NCBI RefSeq assembly: GCF_946479765.1
Contig: NZ_CAMLHO010000001.1
Location: 1-64,000, forward strand
Direction: 5' to 3'
Length of the DNA stretch: 64,000 nucleotides
Origin: an uncultured Aliivibrio sp.
GTDB lineage: Bacteria > Pseudomonadota > Gammaproteobacteria > Enterobacterales > Vibrionaceae
Below the pieces are notes generated by a model, which searched no databases, was not told the origin of the DNA, and was given only the letters and a program-made list of their open reading frames with translations. The translations under genes were made by a program, and so were the position numbers. This document shows positions 8,349 to 60,595 of the stretch, piece after piece; position 1 is the stretch's first letter, and every line of letters begins with the position of its first letter.

Positions 8349-9496
8349 CTATTTATATCTCTTGGTGAACTAGGTAAATTAATCAAGTGTGCTTCAATAT
8401 GCTCAGACTGAGTTAAATCACCACGAGGGGCATCTTTAAACATAGGTAAACGATGCATTAATTGCCAAATTGGACGAGTCATCACACCAGATTCATTGGT
8501 TTGTTTTAAAAGTTCATCACGAGTTGCTACTGACGGACAAATCACTGCATTTAACCAGTAATTAGACTGCGCATATTCAGGCTCAACTACAAACTGAAAG
8601 TCACTTTTCGCAAAAAATTCTTGATAGCGATTTGCCAATACTCGCTTCTGAGCTAAGTATAGATCCAAGACTTCCATCTGAGCGCAGCCTAATGCCGCAT
8701 TTAGATTTGGCATTCGATAATTAAAACCTGCTTCATCATGATAGAACTCATAAGGGTGCGGTACTTTTGCAGTTGTCGTCACGTGCTTTGTTCGAGCACC
8801 AAGCTCTGTTGTTTTGCATAGCACCATGCCGCCGCCACCAGTTGTAATGATTTTATTACCATTAAAACTAACCGCACCAAAATCGCCTAACGTACCCGTA
8901 TGTTTACCTTTGTAAAAAGAGCCTAAACTTTCAGCGGCATCTTCAACTAAGGTAATATTCCATTTATGACAAACAGCAATCAATTCATCCAATTCAACAG
9001 GGTGACCAAAAGTGTGCATTGGTACAACCGCACGAATTGGACGTTTGGTTTGTGTATGAATACAGCCGCTATCCGTTACTTGCGCATGTTGAGTTAAATA
9101 CTCATCCATCGCTTTAGGACAAAGCCCTAAACTTACAGGTGATACATCGACAAATATTGGTTTTGCGCCCATGTGATGTAATGCATTACAGGTTGCGACA
9201 AAAGTAAGCGCTTGAGTAATAACAAAATCACCATGCTGAACGCCTGCCATATACAAGGCAGCATGAAGCGCAGCGGTTCCATTAACCGTCGCAACCGCTT
9301 TTGCTGTTCCTGTATAGGATTCTATTTTCTGTTCAAATTCATCTACAAATTTACCAACGCTAGATACGAAAGTACTTTGAATGGTTTCTAGAACATACTT
9401 CTGCTCATTGCCATCAAACGTTGGGGCATGCAGTGGAATAAAGTCATTAGTTTGATAAATATCTCGCACAAACTCAACTAGTGGTGTTTTACTCAT
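8345..9496 (-). CDS. PLP-dependent aminotransferase of LegC type (DegT/DnrJ/EryC1)
   Basis: Transfers an amino group from glutamate to the 4-keto sugar nucleotide made by the LegB-type dehydratase. DegT-family features include a PLP phosphate region (NGTAALHAAL), EDAAESLGS with the PLP-interacting aspartate, and the Schiff-base lysine in SFNGNKIITTGGGG. The 383 residues fit LegC. It follows legB by 23 bp and its stop overlaps the neuC-like start. A 4-amino product with retained gluco configuration would lead to legionaminate-series sugars, which is inference from the family. Confidence 0.87.
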   Translation of the reverse strand: MSKTPLVEFVRDIYQTNDFIPLHAPTFDGNEQKYVLETIQSTFVSSVGKFVDEFEQKIESYTGTAKAVATVNGTAALHAALYMAGVQHGDFVITQALTFVATCNALHHMGAKPIFVDVSPVSLGLCPKAMDEYLTQHAQVTDSGCIHTQTKRPIRAVVPMHTFGHPVELDELIAVCHKWNITLVEDAAESLGSFYKGKHTGTLGDFGAVSFNGNKIITTGGGGMVLCKTTELGARTKHVTTTAKVPHPYEFYHDEAGFNYRMPNLNAALGCAQMEVLDLYLAQKRVLANRYQEFFAKSDFQFVVEPEYAQSNYWLNAVICPSVATRDELLKQTNESGVMTRPIWQLMHRLPMFKDAPRGDLTQSEHIEAHLINLPSSPRDINR

Positions 9497-10710: not shown

Positions 10711-11049
10711 TACAGTTTCCCTAATGCTGAAAAATCCAGTGAATAAAGTGCCAAAAACAATAATTATCTAGCAGCAGTACTATTTACTAGAATGGACGCT
10801 ATGGCATATAGAAGAGTATGAAGCTAATGCAAGAATAAGGGTATCCAGACACGCTACCGCCCGCAGGTTATCGCGCATCCCTAGCGCATGTAATTCATTG
10901 ATGTGTGTTTTGGCAAAAAAAGACCAGAGACACTGCTTCTACTCTTATAGTAGCGAAGCGAACTAATCTCTAGTCTTCTGCATTTTAGCGCTGAATTTTA
11001 TCTTATTTCTTCATATAATTCACCTTGTTTTATTTATTAACATTATTCT
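10711..11049. other. Operon leader region between legB and the phage-like island
   Basis: No gene is visible. The stretch carries the leader with the ops site, a copy of the dispersed GCGAAGCGAACTA-type repeat (about 10925-10980), and an AT-rich part (10990-11048) that probably holds the operon promoter. Confidence 0.6.
10850..10905 (-). promoter_or_regulatory. JUMPStart/ops element (RfaH recruitment site)
   Basis: The minus strand reads CTGCGGGCGGTAGCGTG, containing the ops core GGCGGTAGCGTG at 10850-10861, preceded by a JUMPStart-like stretch to about 10905. Ops pauses RNA polymerase and loads the NusG paralogue RfaH to suppress termination in long O-antigen and capsule operons. It sits in the leader of the eleven-gene minus-strand operon in the right orientation. 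The promoter should lie between here and about 11050 but I could not choose one with confidence. Confidence 0.85.
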
Positions 11050-11358
11050 TTAATTCGCCATTGTTTGTAATATTATGCGTATTTGCGCGCTCTGTATGCA
11101 TTGGCTTCCTAACCGATACATTGTGGGTTTATCTGGCTCATTAATGACTTCTATATCAATAAAAATACCTGCATTTCTCAATACAGAGCGAAATGCGTAT
11201 TCACCGCTCATTGATAGTTGATGACAAATGTACGCTTTGCTTATGGGTGTCGGGTAGGCTTCCTGCATTACCTCTAACATTTCCCTTGGACGGCCATTCG
11301 CCGATGTAATATGCCTCGCTAAAATTTGTTGTTTTTCATATTGTGTTAGCATTTTCAT
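11050..11358 (-). CDS. Hypothetical small protein, possible winged-helix regulator
   Basis: 102 residues with a good ribosome site (GAGGGA six bases before the ATG). I do not recognise the family. The middle (PISKAYICHQLSMSGEYAFRS) looks like a recognition-helix region, followed by a segment that could form a wing. It therefore may bind DNA, which is a weak inference. It is the second gene of the minus-strand arm of the phage-like island, 28 bp after the replication-type gene. Confidence 0.6.
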   Translation of the reverse strand: MKMLTQYEKQQILARHITSANGRPREMLEVMQEAYPTPISKAYICHQLSMSGEYAFRSVLRNAGIFIDIEVINEPDKPTMYRLGSQCIQSAQIRIILQTMAN

Positions 11359-11386
11359 TCGCGGTCCCTCGCTTATTTATTCGGTC

Positions 11387-12184
11387 TTATTTTTGTCTTT
11401 TCTTACTTGATGTTCTCTCCAACATGGCTTGAATACGCTGCTCTATCGGCTCTTTCATGCCACTTTGTCTGTGCGCTTCCACTAAGGTATCAATGGCTCT
11501 TATTGGTAGGTCCGTGGTTGGCGCTAAAATGTTGGTCGGCGGATAACGAGTCTTTACCGTGGGGGATTGTTTTGCTTTAGCACTGCGGCGTAGCCAGTTA
11601 TTAACAAAATGTCCTAAATGCTCCGGCGGACGCTGTTTTTTAGGGTTAACGAATAACCAAGCGCGCATGGCATTGAGCTCATCCATTACATTAATCGTAG
11701 AATAGCTTTGTACTAATACCTGATAAAACTCATCGTAAATGGCTTGTTCTCCTTGTGTGGTTGGCAAATTGATAACGGGGGATACTTGTTGTTCTTTCTG
11801 TTTCTCTTTCTTTTTTTCTTTCTGATTGCTTATGGGTGCCATTTCTGCCCCCTCTGTGGGTGCGAGAGTTTCCTCCTCCTTGGTGCGTAAGCTGCACACC
11901 TCAATGTGGCTGTCTTTGGGAATGCGTAATTGATACAAGTTGCTTCGTTGTCGCCCTCTGTTATCGAAGCGTTTTATTCGTTCGACAAACCCTAGCGTTT
12001 CTAATTGTTTGATGTGATTTTTTACGGTACGGATAGAGAGCTCACAATATTGTGCGAGGTAATCGTAGGAAGGAAAGCACATGCCGTGCACATCGGCGTT
12101 GTCTGCCAGCTTTAACAACACCAACTTGCTAATGGGTGACCCGGTTTTTAGCGCCATGCACGCCGAGACTAAATGGTGACTCAT
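11387..12184 (-). CDS. Winged-helix replication-type protein (phage O-like)
   Basis: Residues about 10-100 form a Helix_turn_helix_36 type domain: GSPISKLVLLKLADNADVHG, then FPSYDYLAQYCELSIRTVKN and a wing. This is the arrangement in phage and plasmid replication initiators of the lambda O/DnaT class. A lysine/glutamate-rich linker (EKKKEKQKEQQ) separates it from a C-terminal part with a WLFVNPKKQRPPEHLGHFVNNWLRR segment. The start at 12184 is chosen because GAGGAG lies seven bases upstream; a longer frame begins at 12214. It could be a replication protein or a transcriptional regulator. Confidence 0.7.
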   Translation of the reverse strand: MSHHLVSACMALKTGSPISKLVLLKLADNADVHGMCFPSYDYLAQYCELSIRTVKNHIKQLETLGFVERIKRFDNRGRQRSNLYQLRIPKDSHIEVCSLRTKEEETLAPTEGAEMAPISNQKEKKKEKQKEQQVSPVINLPTTQGEQAIYDEFYQVLVQSYSTINVMDELNAMRAWLFVNPKKQRPPEHLGHFVNNWLRRSAKAKQSPTVKTRYPPTNILAPTTDLPIRAIDTLVEAHRQSGMKEPIEQRIQAMLERTSSKKRQK

Positions 12185-12516
12185 CTGTTGCTCCTCATAT
12201 AAATCATGACTCATGACTTAACGGGAGATACTCCAATGAGGGATTGCTTTTTTATCTGCTTCGGACTGTTTTGGTGCGCACTTCTCATTTGGTGTTACTT
12301 AGTTAACACCGTCACATAGAAAACCCTCTAGTCACTCATAAAACACACAATGCAACACTTTTTACACATCCCTTTTTTCTGTTTTTATTTATGCACATGC
12401 TCTGTTTTTCATCAGGCTAAAATTTTATTTTTTATTTATCCCCTCTCGTTAATATCACAATACAGTGGGTCTGCTGCTGTACGTGTTTACAGTGAAACCA
12501 CACCAAAGGAGGTGTT
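12185..12516. other. Divergent control region of the phage-like island
   Basis: This region separates the minus-strand regulator arm from the plus-strand arm. Besides the possible small peptide it is AT-rich (12350-12470), with candidate promoter elements on both strands. I saw no clear attachment site, integrase or operator palindrome. Confidence 0.5.
12236..12319 (+). CDS. Possible 27-residue single-span membrane peptide
   Basis: An ATG at 12236 has GGGAG eight bases upstream and opens a 27-codon frame ending in TAG at 12317. The peptide is almost entirely hydrophobic and aromatic (FFICFGLFWCALLIWCYLV) with a charged start, like a small transmembrane peptide. It heads the plus-strand arm of the island. 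No family is recognised and it could be a chance frame. Confidence 0.4.
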   Translation: MRDCFFICFGLFWCALLIWCYLVNTVT

Positions 12517-13068
12517 ATGACCAAAGCGATACCCAGATTCATTGCTCTTTATTCTGCTACGTCTGCCAGTATTGAAACTCATCAAGGAGACCCATTTTTC
12601 TCTCATCAAGATGGTCCGGCTTTTTCCCCTACTCGTGATGATTTTTTAAACCACTTGAGTGATGTGAAGCGCGCTTACCCTCTTGGGTTTTATGTGGCGT
12701 ATTTACGTTGGGTAGATACCGAACCTTGCTATTTCTCGGCATTGGTCCGGGCTGTTCATCAACATATGTATGTTCTTTTGCCTTTTCATCAGAAAAACCA
12801 GCATGCCGTGGTGCTGGCAACGCTCTATTTTTTGCTAACCGATGCGGTGCTAAACAGTGAACACAATAAGGCGGAGTTATCTCGGGCGGTGTCTATCTCA
12901 GAGGCGATACGTTGTTATGGTGCGTCTTATTCTTGCGATGTTCTTGAAGCGGCGTTGATCACCTCGGTGACTGATGAATATGCGTGGTTAGCTCAACATT
13001 ACGTTGCCTTTGAAGAGGCGCTTGATAGCGATATGGGTGACATTATCGAGGGCACTAAAAATGCGTAA
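12517..13068 (+). CDS. Hypothetical protein of the phage-like island
   Basis: 183 residues with a near-perfect ribosome site (AAAGGAGG before GTTATG). I recognise no domain. It appears soluble, with a mostly helical middle (about 85-130) and an acidic C-terminus. The amidase gene begins inside its last codons, so the two are translationally coupled. Position upstream of the lysis pair would suit a late regulator or accessory protein, but no motif supports a function. Confidence 0.65.
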   Translation: MTKAIPRFIALYSATSASIETHQGDPFFSHQDGPAFSPTRDDFLNHLSDVKRAYPLGFYVAYLRWVDTEPCYFSALVRAVHQHMYVLLPFHQKNQHAVVLATLYFLLTDAVLNSEHNKAELSRAVSISEAIRCYGASYSCDVLEAALITSVTDEYAWLAQHYVAFEEALDSDMGDIIEGTKNA

Positions 13069-13465
13069 TACACCATTAAGCCACATTACGGTGCATTGCA
13101 GTGCTACCCAAGCTGGCGTTGATATTGGGGTGAATGAAATCCGTCAATGGCATCTGGCACGAGGCTGGAGTGATGTCGGCTATCATTTTGTTATCCGTCG
13201 TTGTGGTGTGGTTCAACAAGGGAGGCCGCTCTCTAAAATGGGGGCTCATGTGCGTGGGCATAATAAAGGCAATATCGGGATCTGTTTAATCGGTGGTTAT
13301 GATGAGGCATTGCAAGCGCAAGACAACTTTACTCTTGTGCAGCGTAAGGCGCTCTTTGGTTTGATTGCTAAGTTGCAACGGAAATTTAAGATTAAGGATG
13401 GCAATGTAAAGAGCCATAACGAATGGGATAGCAGAAAAGCGTGTCCGGTGATGGTGATCAATTAG
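13061..13465 (+). CDS. T7-lysozyme-type N-acetylmuramoyl-L-alanine amidase (endolysin)
   Basis: Zinc amidase of the Amidase_2 family that cuts the amide bond between muramic acid and L-alanine of peptidoglycan. Visible features: HCSATQAG (first zinc His), IRQWHLARGWSDVGYHFVIR, GRPLSKMGAHVRGHN, NIGICLIGG, and SHNEWDSRKACP with the second His and the Cys zinc ligands. This order matches T7 lysozyme. The start at 13061 overlaps the upstream stop; a longer frame from 13004 would overlap it heavily and is unlikely. The protein (134 residues) stops only five residues after the zinc Cys, slightly short for the family. No signal peptide, consistent with release by a holin. Confidence 0.85.
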   Translation: MRNTPLSHITVHCSATQAGVDIGVNEIRQWHLARGWSDVGYHFVIRRCGVVQQGRPLSKMGAHVRGHNKGNIGICLIGGYDEALQAQDNFTLVQRKALFGLIAKLQRKFKIKDGNVKSHNEWDSRKACPVMVIN

Positions 13466-13471
13466 GAGGGA

Positions 13472-13816
13472 GTGATGAGTTTTTTTGGTCGGTTGTTTGG
13501 GAGTCAATCTGCGATTGAAAAAGGGATAGAGTCCATTATCAATACGGGGGATGCTCTCATATTTACTAATGAAGAGAAAGCGACGCACAAGTTGGCGCTG
13601 TTGAAAGCCTATGAACCGTTTAAATTGGTGCAGCGTTATATTGTGTTGTGGTTTACGGTGCCTTATGTGTTGTTGCATTGCTTGGTTATTATGGGCAGTT
13701 TGCATGGGTATGATTGGCAGCATGTTGGGGTGATGATCAATGATGCGTTTGGCTATCCGGTGTTGGCGGCGGTTGGGTTGTATTTGACGGGGGGAGTGTT
13801 GCCTAAGAAACGCTAA
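13472..13816 (+). CDS. Holin-like membrane protein (3TM type)
   Basis: 114 residues, 6 bp after the amidase. An amphipathic N-terminal half is followed by two clear hydrophobic segments (about 54-78, LVQRYIVLWFTVPYVLLHCL, and about 92-110) and a basic tail KKR. Shape and position match 3TM-type phage holins paired with an endolysin. The alternative is an unrelated membrane protein. A strong hairpin follows the gene. Confidence 0.72.
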   Translation: MMSFFGRLFGSQSAIEKGIESIINTGDALIFTNEEKATHKLALLKAYEPFKLVQRYIVLWFTVPYVLLHCLVIMGSLHGYDWQHVGVMINDAFGYPVLAAVGLYLTGGVLPKKR

Positions 13817-13820
13817 AAGC

Positions 13821-13859
13821 AAGATCAAGAGCGGAAGTGTCACTACCGCTCTTGATCTT
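13821..13859. terminator. Bidirectional hairpin between holin and wzz
   Basis: AAGATCAAGAGCGG and its exact reverse complement form a perfect 14-bp stem around an 11-base loop. It lies between the converging holin-like and wzz genes. The T-runs are weak, but the stem is strong enough to act on either strand. Confidence 0.75.
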
Positions 13860-13868
13860 ATTTAGTGT

Positions 13869-14630
13869 CTAGTTTTCAGTCTCTAGTTCGCTTTCTTCTT
13901 TTCTAAACGCGAATCTAATTAAAACAAGCGCAACACCTAACATACCGCCAAGCAGAGTGCCTAATACAATGATCAATGCACGTTTTGGTTTAATATGACT
14001 AGTGGCTTTTACTGGCTCTTGAATTACATGAATCAGATCTGTATTTGGACTTTTTAGTAGTGCAATCTTATACACTTGTTGTGCATATTTTTCAGCTAAA
14101 ACACCTTTAACCGCAATACTATCGGTTGTTTTAATCAGATCTTTCAATGGCAATAAGGCAAGTTCAGCTTTCTCTAATTCTATTTGCACTAATGCTTTAT
14201 TAATATGTTGAGTAAACACTTGAACATTATTAAAGATAAAATCTGGGTCTTGTCCTTGTTGTGAGATCGTAACATTTCCACTGATAGATAATAAATTCAA
14301 TTGATCAAGAGAGACATCTGTGGCCTTTTGAATTCGCTCTTTGACTGGTTTTCCAGAAATAGCCATTAACGCTTCATTTTCTTTTGGCCCAATATCTAAC
14401 CCGACCGAATATGGATCCGCATCAACCACCAACACAGCTTTTGATTCATATACATTTGGTTGACTTAGAGCAAATACCGTTGCGCCCGCAGCAAACAACA
14501 GTGTTAAACCAATTATCCATAATTTCCCTGCCCATAGAGCTAAAAATAGCTCTTTTAAGTCAATTTCATCATTCTGAAATGATGGCGGCTGAGGGTATTG
14601 CTGAAACTGTTGTGGTGATTGATTATTCAT
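13869..14630 (-). CDS. wzz: Wzz-family O-antigen chain-length determinant
   Basis: Inner-membrane polysaccharide co-polymerase that sets the length of O-antigen chains. A proline/glutamine-rich N-terminus is followed by EIDLKELFLALWAGKLWIIG and a first membrane span (about 34-54), a periplasmic coiled-coil-rich domain, then PVKATSHIKPKRALIIVLGTLLG with the second span (about 215-238) and the proline-rich motif before it. At 253 residues it is shorter than typical Wzz (about 320-370). It is separated from the leg operon by the phage-like island. Confidence 0.85.
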   Translation of the reverse strand: MNNQSPQQFQQYPQPPSFQNDEIDLKELFLALWAGKLWIIGLTLLFAAGATVFALSQPNVYESKAVLVVDADPYSVGLDIGPKENEALMAISGKPVKERIQKATDVSLDQLNLLSISGNVTISQQGQDPDFIFNNVQVFTQHINKALVQIELEKAELALLPLKDLIKTTDSIAVKGVLAEKYAQQVYKIALLKSPNTDLIHVIQEPVKATSHIKPKRALIIVLGTLLGGMLGVALVLIRFAFRKEESELETEN

Positions 14631-14808
14631 ATTATTCCAAATTTTGTTTTTGTTTGTAAATTATATACGAGTGTACATAACTAGATGCTATAAAAATAAG
14701 TATATAACTTCGAGACACTCACTTTAAGTGTGTCGGTTATTCTTGAGATCTAGGAATTACAGCGAATACCTCTGAACTCTGCAAGAGAGCTTTCGACCGA
14801 TCTGAATT

Positions 14809-15453
14809 CTATAATCTACCCTTATAATGCGCTTCTAACTCTAATATCTGCGCTCTACCCTGCTCTGTCGCCATTGGTCTTACGACATTTAGCATTTGCA
14901 GCACGCCTTGATAAATAAGGTTTTCGGTGATTTCTTTATCTGATAGCAAGGCCGTTTGGTAGTTAATCCAACAAGAAGCCACCAAATGCAGTGTTTTGGT
15001 CAGTGATTTAAGTTCATCATCTTCAAGAGCTATTAAACCAGAATCACGAAAGCTATTCATGATAGCAATTAAGTTATCATTTAATGCTGCTTGCGCTTTT
15101 ACGTATTTTAATTTTAATGCGTCATCTCGGCTTAAAATATCCGGCAAATTGGCATAAAAAAAACGGTAGTTCCACATCAATTCAAAAATAGAATCAAGGT
15201 AACTCATCATTATTTGAACACTTGGCATCGAGGATTGTTCTTCTTCCGCCATCGGCTGAAATCGCTCTTTTAGATCTTGTGCGTAGTTATCAAAAATACT
15301 GTTGATGATCGCTTCTTTGTTGCCAAAGTGGTAGTAAAGATTACCAGGGCTGATCTCAAGATGTGCCGCAATGTGATTGGTAGTAACGCTACGTTCACCA
15401 TTTTGGTTAAAGAGGGTTAAGGCACCGAGGATTATTCTATCTTTTGTTTTCAT
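14809..15453 (-). CDS. TetR/AcrR-family transcriptional regulator
   Basis: 214 residues with a TetR DNA-binding domain at the N-terminus (about 5-50: ILGALTLFNQNGERSVTTNH, then ISPGNLYYHFGNKEAI). The ligand-binding half is helical and not assignable. It is divergent from hldD, 160 bp away, so it may regulate itself or the LPS genes, but no operator palindrome was recognised. The signature is strong; the function is unknown. Confidence 0.85.
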   Translation of the reverse strand: MKTKDRIILGALTLFNQNGERSVTTNHIAAHLEISPGNLYYHFGNKEAIINSIFDNYAQDLKERFQPMAEEEQSSMPSVQIMMSYLDSIFELMWNYRFFYANLPDILSRDDALKLKYVKAQAALNDNLIAIMNSFRDSGLIALEDDELKSLTKTLHLVASCWINYQTALLSDKEITENLIYQGVLQMLNVVRPMATEQGRAQILELEAHYKGRL

Positions 15454-58931: not shown

Positions 58932-60243
58932 TCAAACCAAGAGTGCTGCATTTTCTTGCTTACGCTCTGCGAGTATTTTTTCTATCGCGACCACAGTGGT
59001 CTTACTAACCCCGTGTTGCTCAGCAAGCACCCTAAACCGACTAATGGCATCAACGACCTCTTGAATGCATTGCTGTGCTTGCTTCCAATTAGCAAAACCT
59101 GCACTAGCCGCTAGCTTTTGCATCGCTTTGAGTGGTGGCGCTTTTCCGTACCCGGCAAAGGCGGTTGCATGCTCGTTAAAAGGGTGAGGACTAAACGTCA
59201 CATCGTAAAATGGTGCGAGTTGCCAACTTCCATCATCTGCTTGTAAAAATCCCCAGTTTTTACTGTGATCGTCTTGGTTCGCTGCAAACAAGTTAAAGAT
59301 TGCGCGACGAAATTGAAGTTGCCCAGCAGCAGGTGATTTACACAGTTGACGGCTGGCTTTAATAAGATCGCTGTAGTCTAAGCTAGGACTTCGGAAGTCG
59401 GCATCCAATAAGCCGCAAGCACTGTGCATATGTAAACGTCCAGCCTTCTCATGCGCGGGTAAGTAATCGAAGCGCTTTAACGCAAGCCATGCTTTAGCGC
59501 CACTGCTTGCTGGTGCTTCAATTAGCTGCCAGCTCGGTGGCTGACATTTTGCTTTTTCAGCCATTTGTAAATAAACGGCTTCACACAAACCCTCTTCGTG
59601 GCCCAATGCTAAGTTCTTCGAAGTAAACTTAACTAACCATGCTTCATCGCCAGGCTGTGAATAGGTACGGCATTGCGTCGCGTCGCCAGCAGGCATGTAA
59701 ATTTGCGCTTTAGGGCGGGCACCGCCGGAGCTACCGACTACTACCAACGTTGCTAACACTTGCTGAGTGCTACCGTCTAACTCATCAGAGAGGGACTGGT
59801 CGAACAAGGTTTGGGCTTCAAGCCCAAGTGTTTCCAAATCAATATCTGAACGCTGATCTAATGAGAGCTCTGATATAGGCGTAAAAGACAATGCCCCCAT
59901 ACCTTGCTGGCCAACAAAAGCCAGTCTATCCATTGCTGTCACTTGCGCAGGTAAAATACCTTGTTGGCGGAACACACGATCTTGCAACAACAAACCCCAA
60001 CCATCGGGAAGACTATCACCAAAAACACCGTGAATGCCTTGGTGTGGCACTTTCGGTGCTTGCTGTAAGCGCACATCTCCTTGAAGAGTATAAAGGGGAT
60101 AAATTGCCAAACGTGCTTAGGTAAATGTCATCATACTGAAAGAAAACACCTTGGCGGTTTTGCGCTAATATACCCACCGATACAGTTTCGCCCGTTGTGA
60201 GAGTGCGCTCCACATTCAACTTTTGAATGGATTTAAAGCTCAT
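58932..60243 (-). pseudogene. hipA: HipA toxin kinase, frameshifted
   Basis: Type II toxin kinase that phosphorylates glutamyl-tRNA synthetase in E. coli. Two frames join near 60092-60094: the first (60016-60243) ends NLSPLY and the second (to 58932) reads LYTLQGDVRLQQAPKVPHQG. Removing one T of a TTT run restores the family motif GNLSPxTLQ. SSGGARPKAQI and DDHSKNWGFL (catalytic region), with YDVTFSPHP, are intact. Joined length of about 440 residues is normal. So it is inactive, or the frameshift is a sequencing error or recoded. Confidence 0.85.
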
Positions 60244-60523
60244 CTTTAAGCACCTCTTCTATACTGGTCGGTAAAGCGGTACGGTCAGCCGTTGTTTGTG
60301 TCAGTTGATAAAGCCTGTCTAGTGAGTCCAGCGACTGCCACAAAAGCAGTAACTGACGAAATGAAATTTGTCCGGTGAGTTCAAACTTTTTTATGGTCGA
60401 AGCCGGTACACAACTACGCTGGGCTAGCGACTCTCGCGATAGCTTCGCTTGTTTACGCAAGCCCCGCAAATGAGTAGCAAAAGCTTGGCTTACATCGGTA
60501 TCATCTAAAAGTGAAAAGTTCAT
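60233..60523 (-). CDS. hipB: HipB antitoxin (XRE-family)
   Basis: Helix-turn-helix protein (residues about 15-65: LRGLRKQAKLSRESLAQRSC then VPASTIKKFE). Start taken at 60523, with 96 residues; a longer frame to 60544 is possible. Overlaps hipA by 11 bp, usual for toxin-antitoxin pairs. It should neutralise HipA and repress the operon via the repeats upstream. Confidence 0.85.
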   Translation of the reverse strand: MNFSLLDDTDVSQAFATHLRGLRKQAKLSRESLAQRSCVPASTIKKFELTGQISFRQLLLLWQSLDSLDRLYQLTQTTADRTALPTSIEEVLKDEL

Positions 60524-60540
60524 ACGCAACCAAAGTGGAT

Positions 60541-60595
60541 ACAATAATGTCTATTGTAGCGTTATTTTAAAATTAATAGGCACAATAATGTCCAT
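60541..60595. promoter_or_regulatory. Likely HipB operators
   Basis: Two copies of ACAATAATGTC, 60541-60551 and 60583-60593. The first is part of ACAATA-ATGTC-TATTGT, an exact inverted repeat. They bracket the probable hipBA promoter. Confidence 0.6.

Follow-up and report, generated by a model that had tools for sequence, protein, structure and literature searches.

A 64,000-nucleotide (nt) stretch of DNA from an uncultured Aliivibrio sp. (the window) carries a compact cassette of phage-type genes at 11050-13816. Five open reading frames (ORFs) form two divergent arms, at the positions that a first-pass annotation made from the letters alone had given them and, as it had stated, with intact frames. 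The leftward arm consists of p102 and HTH (helix-turn-helix), an O-like winged-helix protein; the rightward arm encodes p183, a T7-type amidase and a holin-like protein. The flanks are polysaccharide and lipopolysaccharide genes, and the cassette lies between wzz and the O-antigen operon. Its G+C content is 44.0%, compared with 39.6% for the window. The features of the locus are as follows.

11050-11358, minus strand: p102, an ORF for a small predicted winged-helix DNA-binding protein without known family
11387-12184, minus strand: HTH, a winged-helix protein of the phage replication-initiator O type; the longest form of the ORF extends to 12214
12185-12516: divergent region between the arms, about 330 bp, non-coding and alignable with the congener genome G008
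12517-13068, plus strand: p183, first gene of the lysis arm; ORF with a AAGGAGGT ribosome site
13061-13465, plus strand: T7-lysozyme-type N-acetylmuramoyl-L-alanine amidase (endolysin); Amidase_2, phrog_822, 1lba
13475-13816, plus strand: holin-like protein; phrog_9646; two membrane segments predicted from hydropathy
13821-13859: 19-bp inverted repeat, 95% complementary with a 1-nt gap, between the convergent holin and wzz genes
10920-10977, minus strand: possible terminator hairpin behind p102, with arms 10967-10977 and 10920-10930 followed by a T run; found by eye
10851-10862, minus strand: ops sequence (RfaH recruitment site, JUMPstart core), exact GGGCGGTAGCGT, in the leader of the O-antigen operon

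The amidase ATG overlaps the 3' end of p183. We set the HTH start at 12184 rather than 12214 because GAGGAG lies 7-12 nt upstream of the 12184 ATG, with nothing comparable before 12214, and because the congener ORF begins at the matching position. With this start, HTH, p183 and the holin gene have clear ribosome sites, and p102 and the amidase weaker ones. The ~330-bp divergent region may have a regulatory role. No repeat families were reported in it except one 15-nt pair at the HTH end, and promoter-like sites show no excess over shuffled sequences. The 19-bp inverted repeat is perhaps a bidirectional terminator; it is absent from the terminator-like sites of the terminator scan, and the hairpin behind p102 has a loop longer than that scan allows.

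No integrase or virion gene was found among the ORFs neighbouring the cassette, and no packaging or capsid gene among those around it, all judged by reading, which bears out the earlier description of phage-type genes without structural genes. The window contains no tRNA and no Rfam match at gathering score, and a repeat scan of it found no direct repeat bracketing the cassette as an attachment site would. A 13-nt inverted repeat that brackets the window copy (92% complementary) is perhaps due to chance. No spanin gene was seen: only 52 bp separate holin and wzz, and the arm has no further plus-strand ORF of at least 60 amino acids (aa), which leaves room for a shorter or embedded one. Among known PADLOC components, only weak matches were obtained, to the winged-helix part of HTH (Csa3, 4.1e-4) and to p102 (0.024), and none for p183, amidase or holin.

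Putative regulatory and lysis proteins

HTH matches Pfam HTH_36 (1.8e-14) and the PHROG family 'replication initiation O-like' (5.5e-26); a sequence search of the PDB gave no match at 0.01. The best segments shared with phage O-like initiators lie in its N-terminal region and are 28-52% identical (best 80 of 373 loci). Unlike those initiators, HTH has no adjoining helicase or known helicase loader; its partner is p102, and iteron-like repeats occur in part of the copies. In the HTH genes of the Vibrio loci L090-L111 these are imperfect tandem repeats with an 18-nt lag (21-nt in two copies), located at varying positions in the linker. Of 33 HTH genes, 16 have their best self-match at the 18-nt lag, and 15 of these exceed five codon shuffles each; the lag was not seen in HTH of the window, L086, L087, L113 or L114. 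The repeats may be left over from origin iterons or reflect an expanded linker.

The AlphaFold2 model of p102 (mean per-residue confidence, pLDDT, 92.8) has the element order of a winged helix, and on this confident model we assign p102 to that fold. Foldseek returned generic winged helices only, with a best E value of 0.014 in the PDB and 0.005 in a viral library. The protein is 81% identical to its congener copy in G008. Neither p102 nor p183 of the window matches a family at a useful score in Pfam, PHROG, NCBIfam or PADLOC; the best hint for p102 is phrog_11280, of unassigned function, reached via its L114 relative (0.0032).

The amidase matches Amidase_2 (3e-19) and phrog_822 (1.2e-51), and its nearest solved structure is T7 lysozyme (1lba; 1.6e-31), to which it aligns over residues 8-130 of 134. 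Residues H12, Y41, H119, K126 and C128 align with the active-site positions of T7 lysozyme, and 30-33 of the 34 rows in the alignment conserve them. Beyond broken copies, the exceptions are Y41 replaced by Asp in L109 and K126 by Thr in L113. The protein is thus predicted to be a peptidoglycan-cutting endolysin with its active site in place. In contrast to T7 lysozyme, it is chromosomal, one member of a fixed set that also includes p183 and the holin-like gene. The product of the latter has two hydrophobic segments and matches phrog_9646 (2.2e-13), a family of unassigned function; no family names it a holin, and we treat it as a putative one.

The fastest-evolving member of the cassette is p183, and its AlphaFold2 model is uninformative (pLDDT 49.8). 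By eye, residues 54-73 resemble the late antiterminator Q. An hhalign comparison with Phage_antitermQ gave a probability of 0.6% (P 0.097), the window protein has no Pfam or PHROG match and its relatives nothing useful, NCBIfam offered only TIGR02642 at 0.054, far under the cut-off, and PF06530 was silent in genome G000. We therefore rejected this assignment.

Recurrence and genomic position

In 296 Vibrionaceae genomes, the p102 profile has matches in 32, including the genome of the window, and the p183 profile in 25, confined to two of 13 genera, Vibrio and Aliivibrio. Among 394 genomes of the order, the sole match outside Vibrionaceae is weak (21.5 bits, inside a 702-aa frame) and probably due to chance. 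For comparison, 34 loci were fetched from 32 other genomes, and cassette parts were detected with profiles built from cassette members. The search for the gene set in other Vibrionaceae proposed in the first-pass annotation showed that it recurs as a unit: all five parts are present in 28 of the 34 loci, as in the window, and all 28 are divergent with the same order. This recurrence exceeds chance, and the cassette is no isolated remnant. Of the 28 complete loci, 21 have every part in a single frame; the other seven have a split HTH or p183 (L088, L097, L103, L109, L110, L111, L116). Within the 21, HTH is short in L086 and p183 in L095. The L095 p183 gene carries a GTGCA tandem array of 5.8 copies and a 30-nt repeat (8540-8792), and the array cuts its frame short, in the manner of a phase-variable gene.

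A scan of named genomes for HTH yielded 15 loci, partly from the same genomes again, one of them in a metagenome-assembled genome with HTH alone. The hosts include Aliivibrio sp. S3MY1, Vibrio splendidus, V. crassostreae, V. chagasii and V. maerlii; p102, p183 and the amidase are present in 14 of the 15 loci and the holin in 12. One Vibrio genome, G293, holds two complete, diverged cassettes on two contigs (L113, L114), neither with an adjoining ops. In the genus of the window, the cassette adjoins wzz in two of 14 genomes searched, and a third, G004, has a truncated piece elsewhere in its genome. In the congener locus L084 (8406-8666), the amidase core is lost in frame and the holin gene is absent, the sequence being continuous.

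On the side of the lysis arm, a wzc gene of ~720 aa lies 0.1-3.1 kb away and convergent with the arm in 24 of the 34 loci; in the window and G008, wzz takes its place. On the other side, 28 of the 34 loci that have a p102 ORF, the window among them, carry GGCGGTAGC at 127-344 nt behind p102 and on the same strand; the count for GGGCGGTAGC is 27 of 34. The genome of the window has two copies of GGGCGGTAGCRT, one of them the ops at 10851-10862. Across 22 genomes, the 12-base form of ops occurs 1-4 times per genome, 52 times in total compared with 18 for a reversed-pattern control, and single matches elsewhere in the genomes may be due to chance. Because the form is this rare, an ops behind p102 would be expected by chance in about 1 in 10,000 loci. 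The cassette is therefore placed at the head of a polysaccharide operon.

One study gives E. coli ops12 as GGCGGTAGCGTG, with the same core as the ops of the window (PMC5995543), and another assigns JUMPstart to the leaders of polysaccharide genes (PMC2864571). RfaH genes score above the family cut-off in all seven genomes tested. The Rfam JUMPstart model has no match in the window or in seven relatives, and the ops label thus rests on exact sequence and position.

Other contexts, with genes named by reading in L086, L088, L113 and L114, include a site before a pseudaminic-acid-type operon (L086), one between gmhD and cysD (L088) and one inside glycosyltransferase genes (L113). The holin and the next gene outward are co-directional in L086, L088 and L110.

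Sites without the cassette were represented by 29 loci: 11 tetR loci of Aliivibrio and 18 wzc loci of Vibrio, the latter drawn from 58 genomes in which wzc had a match. Of the 18 wzc loci, seven have the start of the next gene no more than 170 nt from wzc, and in two (L238, L240) ops lies behind wzc. In the Aliivibrio genomes G010 and G005, wzz is followed by ops after ~137 nt, again with no cassette. Searching the 29 loci with the five profiles at E 0.01 revealed no cassette remnants. Leaders of occupied and empty sites hardly align outside ops, and exact insertion boundaries could not be set.

Several repeats were observed at these loci. The window has short repeats at 10944-10976 and 14755-14810 that are dispersed over several places in other Aliivibrio loci, and a repeat between wzc and holin in L094 also matches Aliivibrio loci. 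Between wzc and ops, L223 has 1.6 kb without long ORFs, containing a tandem octamer array of the GGATTGCA type and no detected cassette remnant.

The position between wzz and the O-antigen operon, singled out earlier as unusual for phage DNA, is confirmed in the window, and placement beside a polysaccharide locus is not an accident of one strain; it recurs in two genera. Surface-sugar operons specify common phage receptors, and capsule and O-antigen loci determine serotype and phage sensitivity. The site before ops could be a safe harbour between operons; the cassette could also be transferred together with sugar cassettes, control the operon, or guard a phage-receptor locus.

Constraint, age and phage relatives

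Ratios of nonsynonymous to synonymous divergence (dN/dS) were calculated for the Splendidus group from 19-23 sequences per gene from 24 loci, and from 17 genomes for a housekeeping reference gene named Tex by reading. Sequences were trimmed to conserved cores and pairs with synonymous divergence (dS) of 0.05-1.2 were used; HTH copies without the core are outside the HTH figure. Median dN/dS is 0.027 for the HTH domain, 0.030 for the holin, 0.083 for p102 and 0.129 for the amidase, compared with 0.033 for wzc and 0.024 for Tex.

Between the window and G008, dS is 0.73 for p102, 0.68 for HTH and 0.72 for the amidase, compared with 0.71 for Tex and 0.58 for gmhD; p102 and Tex of G004 differ from those of the window by 0.54 and 0.52. 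Median dS in the Splendidus group is 0.61 for p102, 0.51 for HTH and 0.42 for p183, with 0.60 for Tex and 0.65 for wzc. The cassette is an old resident, since its divergence from the congener mostly equals that of the housekeeping gene. Cassette distances also correlate with Tex distances (Mantel r 0.89 for 24 genomes and 0.73 for 17 Splendidus genomes; no value this high arose in 2000 permutations). Next to the cassette, wzz and tetR of the window (13869-15453) have dS values to G008 of 1.43 and 1.48, twice those of Tex and of p102, HTH and amidase (~0.7), a hint of separate histories at the locus.

In 50,697 phage records, tblastn found no match to p102 or p183, and p102 has none in 72,556 plasmid records. 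Scans of IMG/VR, which reach close relatives only, gave no match to either protein, and their profiles found nothing better than E 0.017 on the ORFs of 122 viral loci. Since p102 and p183 are unmatched in the phage records and the IMG/VR scans, no parent prophage was found, and these searches give no sign that the genes occur only inside full prophages, as the first-pass annotation had considered. The other lysis genes do have phage relatives. Amidase matches occur in 1706 phage records, all below 60% identity, and holin matches in 80, also below 60%, of which 74 are Vibrio phages. The holin-like protein further matches 42 viral loci and is 59-62% identical to ORFs of 18 prophage-type IMG/VR contigs (L003-L020; P2-like by reading of L003 and L005). 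There, by reading, its gene lies beside terminase-, portal- and tail-type ORFs, and a cassette-type amidase is present in the fetched stretch of only one of the 42 loci.

Possible role of the cassette

Retention of the cassette next to surface-sugar loci in many species of Vibrio and some of Aliivibrio suggests use by the bacteria, not mere carriage. We tentatively favour, at slightly short of an even chance, the reading that it is a host-maintained (domesticated), phage-derived regulator-plus-lysis cassette at the head of Vibrio and Aliivibrio surface-polysaccharide operons; a domesticated lysis module was among the origins first proposed. The arrangement, with two DNA-binding proteins on one side of a 330-bp region and an amidase-holin pair on the other, suggests a repressible lysis switch. 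HTH and p102 would bind the divergent region and hold the rightward arm silent until a trigger such as phage attack or DNA or envelope damage freed it. p183 would then be produced first, followed by the amidase and the holin-like protein, which may give the amidase access to the wall; lysis or leakage of some cells would follow. The benefit could lie in programmed release of the cells' contents or in abortive defence at a locus for phage receptors. In a more specific version, which we consider unlikely, phage or a failing polysaccharide locus would disturb the winged-helix pair, the amidase and holin would lyse the cell in abortive defence or as a receptor-locus guard, and the cassette would be kept tied to RfaH/ops-controlled surface-sugar operons.

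Several observations weigh against host maintenance of the cassette as a switch. Of 32 loci with HTH ORFs, eight have HTH split; six of 34 loci have no holin; and in G008 the amidase is internally deleted and the holin absent. The full set is therefore dispensable in some hosts. Nor is its content constant in the genus of the window: besides these losses in G008, G004 retains no more than p102 and a fragment of HTH. Constraint is weaker on p183, with a median dN/dS of 0.386 in the Splendidus group. According to PHROG, HTH resembles replication initiators, not known repressors, and the 18-nt repeats that exceed codon shuffles in 15 of 33 HTH genes are what an origin might show. Six of 34 p102 loci lack a neighbouring ops (L088, L089, L106, where one base is off, L113, L114 and L115), and the L114 cassette lies away from polysaccharide genes, on another contig. 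There are also signs of recombination: between the window and G008, dS of p183 is 1.43, compared with ~0.7 for the rest; median dS of the amidase (0.35) and holin (0.32) in the Splendidus group falls short of the Tex value (0.60); and in only three of 17 Splendidus genomes do cassette and Tex point to the same nearest genome. For the most part, then, the cassette tracks its hosts, with a degree of exchange that chiefly involves p183, amidase and holin.

An unlikely alternative is a selfish miniature element, a minimal satellite or replicon that replicates via the O-like protein, is perhaps packaged by a helper phage, and spreads with the frequently exchanged polysaccharide locus. It would account for an O-like initiator occurring together with lysis genes, for the several genomic places, including the two complete copies on two G293 contigs, and for the 18-nt lag, the best self-match in about half of the HTH genes. 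Dispersed repeats in the flanks could recombine, and the 13-nt inverted repeat around the window copy, perhaps a chance one, would fit as well. However, the ORFs around the cassette include none for an integrase, packaging or a capsid, and no direct repeat brackets it; the window, L086, L087, L113 and L114 lack the 18-nt repeats; no p102 or p183 relative was found in phage or viral collections; and divergence tracks that of the host. Phage satellites such as PICI and PLE are likewise small, with few genes and phage-type parts, but they have an integrase, a packaging-interference gene and attachment repeats, none of which was seen here. The satellite of the first-pass annotation lacks these marks, though imperfect 18-nt repeats are present in about half of the HTH genes.

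We regard as improbable that control of the promoter before ops is the main task of HTH and p102, with the lysis arm secondary. Such a regulatory insert agrees with ops lying on the p102 strand wherever it occurs behind p102 (28 of 34 loci, 127-344 nt) and with the RfaH genes in seven of seven genomes. Against it stand the possible terminator seen by eye behind p102 in the window and the related genomes that have the polysaccharide locus without the cassette, and it leaves the constrained holin and amidase unexplained.

Still less do we expect the cassette to be the remnants of one ancient prophage under neutral decay. The phage-type parts, the damaged copies and a G+C content above that of the flanks would suit a prophage, whereas dN/dS well below 1, a divergent order that holds across two genera and the lack of phage relatives of p102 and p183 in our searches do not. 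The decayed prophage suggested earlier is thus a poor fit to the cassette as a whole, given the low dN/dS; decay in related strains affects single copies, including the congener amidase and holin. A guard of the sugar locus, in which wzz/wzc transcription silences the convergent lysis arm and loss of locus expression leads to lysis, fits the convergence in the window, G008 and the 24 loci with a ~720-aa wzc, but is very improbable given the co-directional gene beyond the holin in L086, L088 and L110, a wzc up to 3.1 kb distant and the hairpin between holin and wzz in the window.

Few cases are known of bacteria retaining phage lysis genes, for toxin release or vesicles. The host-maintained reading has its closest known parallel in Type 10 secretion and domesticated lysis cassettes of Yersinia, which likewise combine a chromosomal holin, only putative in our cassette, with an endolysin, lack virion genes and are retained by the host; Serratia is a further Type 10 example. 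In our cassette, by comparison, no spanin was seen, and the linked genes are an O-like/winged-helix pair and polysaccharide operons instead of toxins. The DLP12 lysis module of E. coli K-12 also consists of phage lysis genes retained in a host genome, but DLP12 is described as a defective prophage, while the five genes of the cassette recur alone in two genera. What is constrained in these genera is a compact regulator-plus-lysis set, anchored beside the ops of capsule and O-antigen operons. If active, it would tie cell lysis to surface-polysaccharide loci and allow a test of whether Vibrio guards or exploits them by programmed lysis; the p102 and p183 families provide new handles on it.

Our literature search returned no title or abstract beginning that describes the five-gene set, most subscription papers lying outside its reach. 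By word search, the main text of a V. parahaemolyticus capsule-locus paper contains neither 'phage' nor 'amidase' (PMC7829505), and that of a Vibrio capsule paper none of 'phage', 'amidase' and 'holin' (PMC11641403).

Elsewhere in the window, at 58932-60544, a HipA-like protein is encoded beside a small helix-turn-helix gene, an arrangement resembling a HipBA toxin-antitoxin pair.

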